Notes under the pieces: generated by a model
The model's input: only the letters and a program-made list of their open reading frames with translations
Told to the model about the DNA's origin: nothing
Database searches by the model: none
Made by a program: the position numbers and the translations under genes
Shown here: piece by piece, positions 11,895 through 52,504 of the stretch
How positions within the stretch are numbered: the stretch's first letter is position 1
Layout: the number at the start of each line of letters is the position of its first letter
DNA from: Mesorhizobium sp. WSM2240
Lineage (GTDB): Bacteria; Pseudomonadota; Alphaproteobacteria; Rhizobiales; Rhizobiaceae
Direction: 5' to 3'
DNA length: 64,000 bases
Assembly (NCBI RefSeq): GCF_040438645.1
Contig: NZ_CP159253.1
Coordinates: forward strand, 3,348,001-3,412,000

Positions 11895-11960
11895 CGATCT
11901 GTCCCGTTTTTTGCCGCCCGCGGGGGCGATTGCTGGTCGTTTAGTCTTGTTTCGGCCAAT

Positions 11961-12027
11961 AAAAAAGGCCCCCGAGGGAGCCTATGTCTTAGCGCATGGG
12001 AGGTTTCCGCCCGGCGGTTACACCGCC
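11961..12027 (-). promoter_or_regulatory. ilvB attenuator: hairpins and intrinsic terminator
   Basis: On the minus strand, a GGCGGT-GTA-ACCGCC hairpin (12027-12013) spans the leader-peptide stop codon. After about 30 nt a G/C stem, AGGCTCC paired with GGGGCCT (11983-11966), is followed by a run of six T (11966-11961). The terminator lies 67 nt upstream of ilvB. I could not settle the alternative antiterminator pairing by eye. Confidence 0.8.
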
Positions 12028-12071
12028 TTGCCCACGCGCCTTCCTACTACGAGAATGCCTGTCATCTTCAT
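12018..12071 (-). CDS. ilvB leader peptide
   Basis: This 17-codon frame encodes MKMTGILVVGRRVGKAV. It has consecutive Ile-Leu-Val-Val codons (ATT CTC GTA GTA) and two later Val codons, and its stop codon sits inside the first hairpin of the attenuator. Such a peptide senses the supply of charged branched-chain tRNAs: a stalled ribosome favours read-through into ilvBN. It is too short for ordinary gene calling, but composition and position make it convincing. Confidence 0.8.
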   Translation of the reverse strand: MKMTGILVVGRRVGKAV

Positions 12072-12131
12072 GGGCGCGGAGACTAATTGCCGCAAAGGCA
12101 TGGTGTCAATGGGCAAATTCAACACCTCTGC

Positions 12132-25273: not shown

Positions 25274-25398
25274 CGCTGCCGCTTCGATTCGAGGTTTTGG
25301 CGATCATAGCCGAGGCCAAATCCGGCGCATACGGCATATCGCCGATTGAGGCCATTGCGGCCTTCCATTTTCGCCCGGGGCTTCCTATATTCATCGAG

Positions 25399-25713
25399 CC
25401 GGCTTGTCCGGCTATGGCGATAAACAGGCGATGCAATAAGCCGTTCGGACCCGGGGGCGGTACCCGGCGCCTCCACCAAAAGCCGCTTTTCGAGAGCGGT
25501 TTCTGATGGGGGCGAAATAGGATCGACGAAGGTGTAAAGATCGTGCTTTCGCCCGGCATTGTACCACCGTTATCGGGCTAACCTAGTAGTTGCAAACGAC
25601 AACTATGCGGAAGCACGTCTCGCCGCTTAATGCGGTGCGATAGCTTCAAATCAAGTCCTAGGGGTTCGCACTTCTAGGCGAGGTTCGGAGGTACCTGGCA
25701 ACAGAAACCTCCA
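25399..25713 (+). ncRNA. ssrA: Circularly permuted (two-piece) tmRNA
   Basis: tmRNA with SmpB rescues stalled ribosomes and tags nascent chains for proteolysis. The acceptor piece ends CGCCTCC-A-CCA at 25468-25478. The complementary GGGGGCG that starts the coding piece is downstream (25508-25514), so the 3' half precedes the 5' half, as in other alphaproteobacteria. The predicted 7-bp acceptor stem keeps a G3-U70 alanine-type wobble. A 29-nt spacer that can form a hairpin (25479-25507) should be excised. The tag frame (25592-25630, ending TAA) encodes ANDNYAEARLAA. The T-stem CCGGG/CCCGG holds loop GGCGGTA. The 5' end (about 25399) and 3' end are estimates. Confidence 0.93.
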
Positions 25714-25823
25714 CTTCTCTCTCCCCATTCCATCTCTATTTGGCCGACACGGCGCAATGTGCAGCATTTGCTGCGTGCGCCTGCCTGTCGACCTGCGCCT
25801 CCCTTCATATTCCGGAGACAAGC

Positions 25824-49789: not shown

Positions 49790-52504
49790 ATGTCAGGTTT
49801 CCCGGACGACATGCCCTTTTTCGACGAGCCGAGCGCCCCGCCCGCCCGCCCGGCTGGCGGCCACGCGCCTTCGGGCATCGCCGCGCGCGCCATGGCCGCG
49901 CGCCAGGCTTCCGCGCCCGATTACCTCGCCGGCCTCAACCCCGAGCAGCGCCTCGCGGTCGAGACCACGGAGGGTCCGGTGCTGGTTCTGGCCGGAGCCG
50001 GCACGGGCAAGACGCGCGTGCTTACCACCCGCATCGCCCATATCCTTGCCACCGGCCGCGCCTTTCCCAGCCAGATTCTGGCCGTCACCTTCACCAACAA
50101 GGCCGCGCGCGAGATGAAGCAGCGCGTCGGCATGCTGGTCGGCGAAGCCATCGAGGGCATGCCGTGGCTCGGCACCTTCCATTCCATCGGCGTAAAAATG
50201 CTGCGCCGCCACGCCGAGCTCGCCGGCCTGAAATCCGGCTTCACCATCCTCGACACCGATGACGTCGTGCGCCTGATCAAGCAGTTGATCCAGGCCGAGG
50301 GGCTGGACGACAAGCGCTGGCCGGCGCGCCAGTTCGCCATGATGATCGACGGCTGGAAGAACAAGGGCCTCGGCCCCTCGGAAATCCCCGAGGGCGACGC
50401 GCGCTCCTTCGCAAACGGCCGGGGCCGCCAGCTCTACCAAGCCTACCAGGAGCGGCTGCAGACGCTCAACGCCTGCGATTTCGGCGATCTCCTGTGCCAC
50501 CCCATCCGCATCTTCCGCGCCTATCCGGACGTGCTGAAGGAATATCACCGCCGCTTCAAATACATCCTCGTCGACGAATACCAGGACACCAACACCGCGC
50601 AGTATATGTGGCTGCGGCTCCTGGCGCAGCGGCCGGAGGAGCCGCGCCGCCCCTCATCCCCTGCCGGACCTTCTCCCCGGGAAAAACGGGGAGAAGGAGG
50701 AAGCTCCAACGCTGATGCCCCCCTCTCCCCGTCCTTACGGGGAGAGGGTAAGGGTGAGGGGCAGCGCGACTTTGCGGCCGTGAGCGAAAACAAAAGGCAG
50801 CAGATAAATATCTGCTGCGTCGGCGACGACGACCAGTCCATCTATGGCTGGCGCGGGGCCGAGGTCGACAACATCCTCCGCTTCGACAAGGATTTCCCCG
50901 GCGCGACCATCATCCGGCTGGAGCGCAACTACCGCTCCACCGCCCACATTCTCGGCGCGGCCTCGCATCTCATCGCCCACAATGAAGGGCGGCTGGGAAA
51001 AACCCTGTTCACCGAAAGGGCCGACCCCGACGACGCCAAGGTCCATGTCCACGCCGCCTGGGATTCGGAGGAGGAAGCCCGCGCCGTCGGCGAGACCATC
51101 GAGCAGGCGCAGCGCGAAAAGCACAATCTGAACGACATGGCGATCCTTGTGCGCGCGTCCTTCCAGATGCGCGAATTCGAGGACCGGTTCGTCACGCTCG
51201 GCCTCAACTACCGCGTCATCGGCGGCCCGCGTTTTTACGAGCGCCAGGAGATCCGCGACGCGCTCGCCTATTTCCGCGTGGTCGCCCAGGGCGCGGACGA
51301 CCTCGCCTTTGAGCGCATCGTCAACGTGCCCAAGCGCGGCCTCGGCGAAGCCGCCATCCGCCAGGTCCACGACACCGCCCGCGCGCTTGGCGTGCCGATG
51401 CTGGAAGCCGCCGAAAAGCTCGCCGAAAGCGACGAGCTGAAGCCGAAGCCGCGCGCCGCACTCCGCGAAGTCGCCGCCAATTTCGCGCGCTGGCAGGCAG
51501 CCCTCGACCACACGCCCCATACCGAGCTTGCCGAGACCATTTTGGAAGAGTCCGGCTACACCGACATGTGGAAGAACGACCGTTCGGCGGAAGCGCCGGG
51601 CCGGCTCGAAAACCTCAAGGAGCTCATCCGCTCCGTGGAGGAATACGAGTCGCTGCGCTCCTTCCTCGAGCATGTCGCGCTGGTCATGGACGCCGAGCAG
51701 CAGGAGAACATGGACGCCGTCAACATCATGACGCTGCACTCGGCGAAAGGCCTCGAATTCGAGACCGTCTTCCTCCCCGGCTGGGAGGAAGGCCTGTTCC
51801 CGCACCAGCGCTCGCTCGACGAGGGCGGCCGCTCCGGGCTGGAGGAAGAGCGCCGCCTCGCCTATGTGGGCTTGACCCGCGCCAAGAAGAATCTGCACAT
51901 CTGGTTCGTCTCCAACCGCCGCATCCACGGCCTCTGGCAGTCGACCATCCCCTCGCGCTTTCTCGACGAGCTGCCCGAAGCCCATGTCGAAATCGACGAG
52001 GGCTCATCCTCCTATGGCGGCTACGGTTCGGCCTATGGCGGCGGCAGTTTCGCCTCCGGCCGCGGCGCCAAGGGGGCGGGAAGACAAAATCCCTACGGCG
52101 CCTCTCGATTCGACAATCTGGGGGGCGGTTCCGGCGCGGGCGGTGGCTCTTTCTCCAGCACCTACCAGACGCCGGGCTGGCAGCGCGCGCAGCAGAACCG
52201 CACCGAGGCGACAGACCGCAATTGGGGCACGCGTTCCGGCCATGCCGTCGAGCGCATCGGCTATGGCGAAACCGATAGCGGCTACGGCGCCGGCCGCGGA
52301 TCGGTAAAAGGCCGCACCATAGACGGCGAGCTCGTCGCCAAATCCGTCTCCGACACCCCCTCCCCGTTCACGGTCGGCGACCGTGTCTTCCACCAGAAAT
52401 TCGGCAACGGCAACGTCGTCGCCATCGACGGCAACAAGCTCACAATCGACTTCGACAAGGCCGGCCAGAAACGGGTGCTGGACGGGTTTGTGACGGGGGT
52501 TTGA
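49790..52504 (+). CDS. uvrD: ATP-dependent DNA helicase UvrD/PcrA/Rep family
   Basis: The 904-residue 3'-5' SF1A helicase acts in nucleotide excision and mismatch repair. Walker A AGAGTGKT is at 68-75, TFTNKAAREM (motif Ia) follows, then VDEYQDTN (motif II, about 262-269). GDDDQSIYGWRG (motif III), LERNYRST (IV), TLHSAKGLEFE (V) and YVGLTRAKK (VI) complete the set. A Gly/Ser-rich linker leads to a PcrA-type C-terminal Tudor-like domain (DRVFHQKFGNGNV). Between motifs II and III there are about 76 residues instead of about 20, of which 38 are encoded by a palindromic repeat (50649-50762). The ATG at 49790 begins the common N terminus. Confidence 0.95.
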   Translation: MSGFPDDMPFFDEPSAPPARPAGGHAPSGIAARAMAARQASAPDYLAGLNPEQRLAVETTEGPVLVLAGAGTGKTRVLTTRIAHILATGRAFPSQILAVTFTNKAAREMKQRVGMLVGEAIEGMPWLGTFHSIGVKMLRRHAELAGLKSGFTILDTDDVVRLIKQLIQAEGLDDKRWPARQFAMMIDGWKNKGLGPSEIPEGDARSFANGRGRQLYQAYQERLQTLNACDFGDLLCHPIRIFRAYPDVLKEYHRRFKYILVDEYQDTNTAQYMWLRLLAQRPEEPRRPSSPAGPSPREKRGEGGSSNADAPLSPSLRGEGKGEGQRDFAAVSENKRQQINICCVGDDDQSIYGWRGAEVDNILRFDKDFPGATIIRLERNYRSTAHILGAASHLIAHNEGRLGKTLFTERADPDDAKVHVHAAWDSEEEARAVGETIEQAQREKHNLNDMAILVRASFQMREFEDRFVTLGLNYRVIGGPRFYERQEIRDALAYFRVVAQGADDLAFERIVNVPKRGLGEAAIRQVHDTARALGVPMLEAAEKLAESDELKPKPRAALREVAANFARWQAALDHTPHTELAETILEESGYTDMWKNDRSAEAPGRLENLKELIRSVEEYESLRSFLEHVALVMDAEQQENMDAVNIMTLHSAKGLEFETVFLPGWEEGLFPHQRSLDEGGRSGLEEERRLAYVGLTRAKKNLHIWFVSNRRIHGLWQSTIPSRFLDELPEAHVEIDEGSSSYGGYGSAYGGGSFASGRGAKGAGRQNPYGASRFDNLGGGSGAGGGSFSSTYQTPGWQRAQQNRTEATDRNWGTRSGHAVERIGYGETDSGYGAGRGSVKGRTIDGELVAKSVSDTPSPFTVGDRVFHQKFGNGNVVAIDGNKLTIDFDKAGQKRVLDGFVTGV
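50649..50762. repeat. Interspersed palindromic repeat inserted in frame in uvrD
   Basis: The 114-bp element has near-perfect terminal inverted repeats, GCCCCTCATCCC and AAGGGTGAGGGGC. It holds two perfect hairpins, CCTTCTCCCC with GGGGAGAAGG (50669-50697) and CCCTCTCCCCGT with ACGGGGAGAGGG (50721-50748). The sequence is of the repeat type usually found between genes in Rhizobiales. Its length is 38 codons, so the helicase frame is kept. Confidence 0.8.

Follow-up and report, generated by a model that had tools for sequence, protein, structure and literature searches.

The uvrD gene in the window, a stretch of 64,000 nucleotides of Mesorhizobium sp. WSM2240, raises the question of how a palindromic repeat came to lie inside a conserved helicase gene and whether it is read there as protein. 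This uvrD/pcrA-type gene occupies 49790..52504 on the forward strand, starts with an ATG at 49790 and runs through 904 codons in a single open frame. Its product scores 287.9 bits against PF00580 and 766.8 bits against TIGR01073, the latter under that model's cut-off of 911.2; together with PF13361 and PF21196 these models place the SF1A core domains and motifs in the protein, which is the sole match at E<=1e-100 in a search of the window's whole genome (G000). Between helicase motif II, DEYQDTN (50573..50593, forward strand), and motif III, GDDDQSIYGWRGA (50822..50860, forward strand), there are 76 residues as against 20 in E. coli UvrD, the latter figure being taken from the alignment numbering (chain residues 237 and 243 opposite query residues 278 and 340, the query starting at residue 2). 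These spacings agree with the values of about 76 and about 20 given in the original prediction.

The loop contains a palindromic repeat with a core of 114 bp (50649..50762, forward strand), which belongs to a repeat family that we call A; 18 of the 56 extra loop residues fall outside this core. As had been predicted, the core has inverted ends (GCCCCTCATCC / GGGTGAGGGGC, 10 of 11 positions pairing by eye) and two perfect hairpins on the forward strand, the left one (50669..50697) with 11-bp arms at 50669-50679 and 50687-50697 and the right one (50721..50748) with 12-bp arms at 50721-50732 and 50737-50748. Folded as RNA the 114 bp reach -74.7 kcal/mol (z -5.9), and none of 200 shuffled sequences folded equally well. 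Rfam at gathering scores gave no family at 50649-50762; elsewhere in the window an alphaproteobacterial permuted tmRNA gene (25359-25715, forward strand) and an Atu_C8-type sRNA (11950-12072, reverse strand) were found over the gathering score.

We compared 38 intact ends from 30 fetched family-A matches and found that the bases just outside the core follow the pattern RGCGCC, with a purine in 38 of 38 and then G in 30, C in 25, G in 17, C in 21 and C in 19. The uvrD copy continues this pattern at both sides. The ends of the element are thus not sharp. Because these outer bases are conserved among the copies, it probably extends beyond the 114 bp, with a probable fuller extent of 124 bp (50644..50767, forward strand). 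It had been claimed that the insert adds exactly 38 codons and keeps the frame; the frame is indeed kept, whereas the exact count varies with the ends chosen. Further downstream follows a 21-bp tail (50774..50794, forward strand) of an older low-copy element, G, which is 95% identical to the G element of locus L083. Around the QQINICC codons ahead of motif III (50796-50819) we also noticed by eye a near-perfect short palindrome (GCAGCAGATA / TATCTGCTGC).

In the window's own genome (6.7 Mb) family A is present in many other copies: 40 of 56 first-look candidates were scored and gave at least 67 pieces at E<=1 on both strands, which come down to at least 40 places once neighbours no more than 200 bp apart are joined. 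All 22 long matches (at 21 places, uvrD itself and partial matches included) have at least one open frame of the six, and it is therefore not surprising that the element could arrive in uvrD in frame. A length divisible by three, which only 12 of these 22 matches have, was dropped as strong evidence. We looked at the surroundings of the 30 best-scoring matches, representing 28 of the at least 40 places. An open reading frame of at least 100 codons spans 17 of the 30, uvrD included, and is absent at 13. Among ten such loci scanned besides uvrD, one is a family-4 uracil-DNA glycosylase, three probably have the repeat in front of the gene, with family A ahead of a recognised domain, and six matched no family. 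Two in-gene copies, in uvrD and in the uracil-DNA glycosylase gene, are therefore certain among 11 of the 17 loci with a spanning frame; others may exist, these counts referring to the fetched loci and not to a scan of the whole genome. To sum up, the sequence at 50649-50762 is confirmed as one copy of a dispersed family-A repeat read in frame within an intact uvrD gene, which supports the idea that a mostly intergenic repeat has become protein-coding, and most likely the insert is translated.

Neither of the two outcomes named beforehand as refutations was found: the element has many other copies, and two genomes of the same genus hold other DNA in the loop. In G002 uvrD has a G-type loop and in G001 a short hairpin of another kind, both without family A. 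Outside uvrD these two genomes contain 44 and 48 family-A pieces, a rough count for which no more than 40 candidates were scored. The window's copy shares 93% identity with one other copy of its own genome, 92% with the best ones of G001 and G002 and 88% with the uvrD insert of L069. In addition two database UvrD proteins (P0002 and P0010) have nearly the same loop of family A plus G tail. Family A could have reached the window's uvrD once its lineage had parted from those of G001 and G002, or else have been lost or replaced in these two; since P0002 and P0010 carry a near-identical loop, the insertion may not be recent and the two relatives may have lost or replaced it. On account of these two proteins we dropped the claim that family A in uvrD is specific to the lineage of the window. 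In uvrD of G001 (L043, about 1490-1640), which comes from a draft of 350 contigs, the reading frame changes at the loop hairpin, and this may be an assembly error.

We then asked how the loop looks in UvrD more widely and collected 110 uvrD loci, namely the best 30 of 60 genomes with a match and 80 from a genome collection, among the matches listed. With the exception of the G001 locus all of them (109 of 110) read open through the loop, the length of which spreads from 20 to 116 residues. Taking the short loop of L111 as reference, 91 of the 109 sequences are longer by 8 residues or more at one and the same point, the largest excess being 91. In this alignment, which covers the protein from about residue 20 onwards, only 12 insertions of at least 8 residues were found elsewhere, all in the C-terminal part, plus one further case of 9 residues three positions from the main point. 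The 109 loops were labelled as family A (4), B (16), C (11), D (5), E (2), short (19) and G or other (52); a G probe matches 48 loops of the last class at E<=1e-3, in some cases weakly, and the loops of L033, L037, L038 and L040 matched none of the probes. Short loops recur and one of them (L125) is found within Mesorhizobium. Judged by eye the insertion points shift by about 0-27 nt past the QRP codons. CTCCCC arms were found in codon phase 2 (48 cases), phase 1 (20) and phase 0 (1) and GGGGAG arms in phase 0 (53), 1 (8) and 2 (1); as both arms occur in all three phases, the idea of one strict reading frame for every family was dropped. We favour the view that this loop is a recurrent site, or hotspot, for several repeat families, as the sequences suggest.

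According to general knowledge of the fold, the UvrD loop should run from where the helix behind motif II ends to where the strand leading into motif III begins. In RecA-like folds the edge joining these two elements points away from the nucleotide site. Such a position would explain the wide range of loop lengths and makes it unlikely that the loop lies on the ATPase face, a placement in the original prediction that we could not support. The loop would be surface-exposed and structurally tolerant.

Searches of whole genomes showed that the families A, B, C and D are each dispersed, including in genomes whose uvrD is without the family in question. Counting pieces on both strands with at most 40 candidates scored per genome, which makes all these numbers rough, we found 91-144 pieces of family B in each of 12 genomes and 13 in the window's genome, 11-33 pieces of C in 9 genomes, and 10-16 pieces of D in the genomes of L110, L119, L130 and L136 with 0-11 in four others. 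Family A has 0-54 pieces in 13 genomes and is matched in 12, two of these 12 handles showing identical places. Element G is low-copy (0-3 in 13 genomes, some of them being uvrD itself), and genome searches at 1e-4 found none in G000 or G001. At locus L168 we noticed by eye a G-type element within an open reading frame of 634 codons that resembles a mobile-element primase.

When the probes were compared with each other, A matched E (31 bp) and B, C and D matched each other over 19-49 bp. The best matches within a group were those of the L031 loop (A) to E (55 bp at 85%) and of B to C (49 bp at 78%); C and one G probe gave a marginal match (66 bp, 71%), and no similarity between the A/E and the B/C/D probes was seen at E<=0.01. 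The common monomer-like stretch of A and E and the common arms of B, C and D led us to drop the statement that all families are unrelated. On sequence comparison they form three groups, A/E, B/C/D and the low-copy G, with distinguishable families inside each, and considering the hairpin stretches shared within groups and the marginal match of C to G there may be fewer independent families than names.

The loops are also layered. Two families lie side by side in several of them, namely B and G (L041, L059), E and G (L047) and C and G (L126), and a G tail stands beside D in L133 and beside A in L031 and L034/L131, the match of the last two to family A being limited to the right 46 bp and the hairpins. 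In database proteins A is followed by a longer G (P0008) and B by G (P0062). Since the loop in the window ends in the 21-bp G tail, family A there sits within or beside an older insert. In the loop of G002 (L064) a putative remnant of B scored 16 as against a maximum of 14 among 200 shuffled sequences, a weak support. Could all these loops nevertheless stem from one ancient insertion which diverged into apparent families? The hairpin stretches common within the groups would fit, as would the observation that uvrD B loops of different species are 94% alike and at most 88% identical to other copies in the genome of L120. However, for A, B and C a large part of the loop is matched by dispersed copies of the same family, A/E and B/C/D do not match each other at E<=0.01, and different families adjoin in the same loop. 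We therefore consider a single origin very unlikely.

A tree of UvrD was built without the loop by a quick method; of its 104 inner branches 41 are unresolved, and the 109 rows include two identical pairs. The families are scattered over this tree, and near-identical UvrD proteins hold different loops. The minimum number of changes, which is not to be equated with a number of insertions, is 3 for A, 12 for B, 10 for C, 4 for D, 2 for E and 10 for short loops. Within the same sequences the synonymous divergence of the loop stays below that of the 134 UvrD codons that follow (B 0.174 and 0.312, C 0.179 and 0.338, G 0.201 and 0.318, respectively). This and the likeness of the B loops fit an exchange of loop alleles between species. 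It is quite possible, although we incline against it, that insertions were few and that the scatter is largely due to homologous recombination, which would have carried loop alleles between species; the different loops on nearly identical proteins would then follow as well. Exchange cannot, however, create different families at one site, so that several founding insertions are still needed, and constraint on the hairpins could likewise have reduced the synonymous divergence. Read conservatively, each group would have arrived at least once. Such a spread is compatible with, and partly contained in, the repeated insertion of different repeats that we favour.

The same repeats occur in other proteins. 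We searched 5.8 billion proteins with two of the elements in translation, covering a single reading frame and a single range of protein lengths. Element A gave 35 matches: UvrD (10), PolA (6), CobN (5), IleS (5), GlyS (4), oxoprolinase-type proteins (3) and UvrB (2). The translated B element gave 145, and among the 120 of these listed are UvrD, GlyS, CobN, CobG, FtsY, an ABC protein, a methylase and others. In 31 full-length GlyS sequences (from 35 loci) we found three recurrent sites, at about 295, 386 and 561 of L268, and the family-E peptide recurs in GlyS too. In the window's genome glyS (L270, C1:1409546-1412134) is one open reading frame which on the DNA level has family B at two of these sites, the first and the third. 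G001 has B at all three. In G002 the second site contains an element resembling D (75% over 88 bp) and the third contains family A, so that the third site is occupied by B in G000 and G001 and by A in G002. Genomic loci of B (L278-L292 without the uvrD locus L282) lie in genes in 11 of 14 cases (pyruvate dehydrogenase E2 5, GlyS 4, oxoprolinase 2) and those of C in 4 of 5 (E2 2, XdhC 2); these loci were chosen for their similarity to uvrD copies and are therefore biased towards in-gene forms. The E2 gene of the window's genome (L275, C1:1370800-1372900) contains B and a second palindromic element, and the frame changes near both, possibly by an assembly error.

The family-4 uracil-DNA glycosylase gene of the same genome (C1:1621436-1622371) has family A at residues 58-97 of its reading frame, in an N-terminal linker where G000, G001 and G002 all have it (L197-L199). 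We do not count this linker as a hotspot; the 17 other readable linkers among 30 fetched orthologues are by eye without a clear repeat. In-frame copies of such elements are hence known from unrelated conserved proteins, namely from uvrD, the uracil-DNA glycosylase and glyS in the window's genome and seven kinds of protein for the translated A element.

The ratio dN/dS in the loops was 0.30 for B (8 of 16 loops), 0.39 for C (10 of 11), 0.31 for G (14 loops) and 0.44 for a second G set (9 loops), compared with 0.16-0.20 in downstream UvrD. When a further 16 copies of family A from G000 were treated as coding sequence, they gave 0.76-1.16 over the three frames, with 0.76 in the frame of UvrD; this control is small and stems from a family other than those measured in the loops (B, C and G). 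Values below 1 in frame would support translation. It is thus highly improbable that the insert is absent from the mature protein by translational skipping or RNA processing, an idea for which the strong hairpins and the frame changes in G001 uvrD and in the E2 gene could be put forward, both changes being possibly assembly errors, and which has against it, besides the dN/dS values, the open frame in all loci but one.

The same values hint that the loop residues are not wholly free and may even matter, contrary to a pure spacer. The loop might then have been recruited, its length or sequence modifying UvrD in processivity or partner binding, with the long loop selected and the source of its DNA turning over. 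The dN/dS of 0.30-0.44 and the long loop in 91 of 109 UvrD proteins speak for such a role; yet short loops turn up repeatedly (in 19 of the 109 sequences, with no fewer than 10 changes on the tree, and also inside Mesorhizobium), inserts of the different groups have no common sequence and the same repeats are found in enzymes otherwise unlike. Altogether we regard recruitment as unlikely.

We consider it probable that the insert belongs to a family of REP-like palindromic repeats of this bacterial group and lodged in a permissive loop of UvrD, where such elements would insert, persist and turn over. REP-like repeats would insert widely and mostly harmlessly between genes. Within genes only insertions that can be read through and lie in tolerant surface loops would persist, selection removing the others, and later elements would arrive beside or within earlier ones. 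Loop alleles would pass between species, some being replaced and some deleted again, and the encoded residues would mainly form a flexible spacer without a sequence-specific job. More doubtful is a further reading, that the Hyphomicrobiales have a lineage of palindromes adapted to a life within genes, with paired inward-facing hairpins, a short stop-free spacer, spread from gene to gene and re-use of loops in core enzymes (UvrD, GlyS, IleS, CobN, pyruvate dehydrogenase E2 and PolA) with turnover between sister species. If this were true, such loops would act as lasting docking places, the occupants changing from one sister species to the next. The original prediction of a coding repeat has thus stood, without its placement on the ATPase face; it had overlooked the recurrent site, the older G element and the other housekeeping proteins.

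How do these elements compare with known systems? In the literature searched we found no description of the UvrD site or of in-frame palindromes in Mesorhizobium, subscription papers being mostly outside this search and most papers being judged by title or the start of the abstract. The RIME, Sm and ABC repeats of rhizobial genomes are described, in the available part of PMC2573895, as dispersed and intergenic with conserved sequence and structure; family A resembles them in its dispersal and departs from their description as intergenic, a comparison of descriptions. Intragenic REPs of the GTAG and CGTC super-families, catalogued in 2013, hit UvrD/REP helicase, excinuclease proteins, DNA polymerase I and tRNA synthetases, and alphaproteobacteria have CGTC-type repeats, as far as the portions of PMC3733652 available to us go; its main text does not mention Mesorhizobium. 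Family B resembles the CGTC-3/4 description given there (9 bp stem starting with AT, 5 bp loop), but by eye its flanking tag does not read CGTC. Family A, with stems of 11-12 bp and no AT start, departs from the CGTC-REP form (8-9 bp stem starting with AT, 4-5 bp loop, terminal CGTC, 3-bp tail). Nor does it fit a GTAG REP with its RAYT transposase: a search for the Y1 transposase (PF01797) gave no match in G000, and in 5 of 21 genomes a match at E<=0.001, four of them over the cut-off, one of these four being the same-genus G001. In the accessible part of PMC3733652 the insertion sites also differ between the cases of a gene, except for recB of two Xanthomonas species, whereas the UvrD loop is recurrent.

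The closest likeness is to the palindromic elements of Rickettsia (RPE) and Wolbachia. The available text of PMC2229807, PMC10969869 and PMC3767692 describes dispersed palindromes of about 100-150 bp in several families, which lie in frame in conserved genes at solvent-exposed places. Family A is likewise dispersed and multi-copy (at least 40 places) with a strong palindromic fold and is found in frame in conserved genes, a likeness drawn from descriptions. In contrast to what is described of the RPE, the elements here are GC-rich, their hosts are free-living Hyphomicrobiales, and families of different groups occupy one point of UvrD, also side by side, in many species. In R. japonica different RPE groups lie near one another in orthologues, and for the sites with several groups (RPE-4/6/7) either a hotspot or one diverged insertion was considered, the authors inclining to the latter in the text available (PMC3767692). 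For this question, left open in Rickettsia as far as that text goes, UvrD and GlyS favour hotspots here, and the present group offers many sequenced and culturable relatives in which hotspots can be tested. The pattern marks sites at which essential enzymes accommodate tens of additional residues, and in it non-coding repeats are seen in the course of becoming protein. The kind of element is thus already known, and the new part is the host group together with the layered occupation of one protein site by several families.
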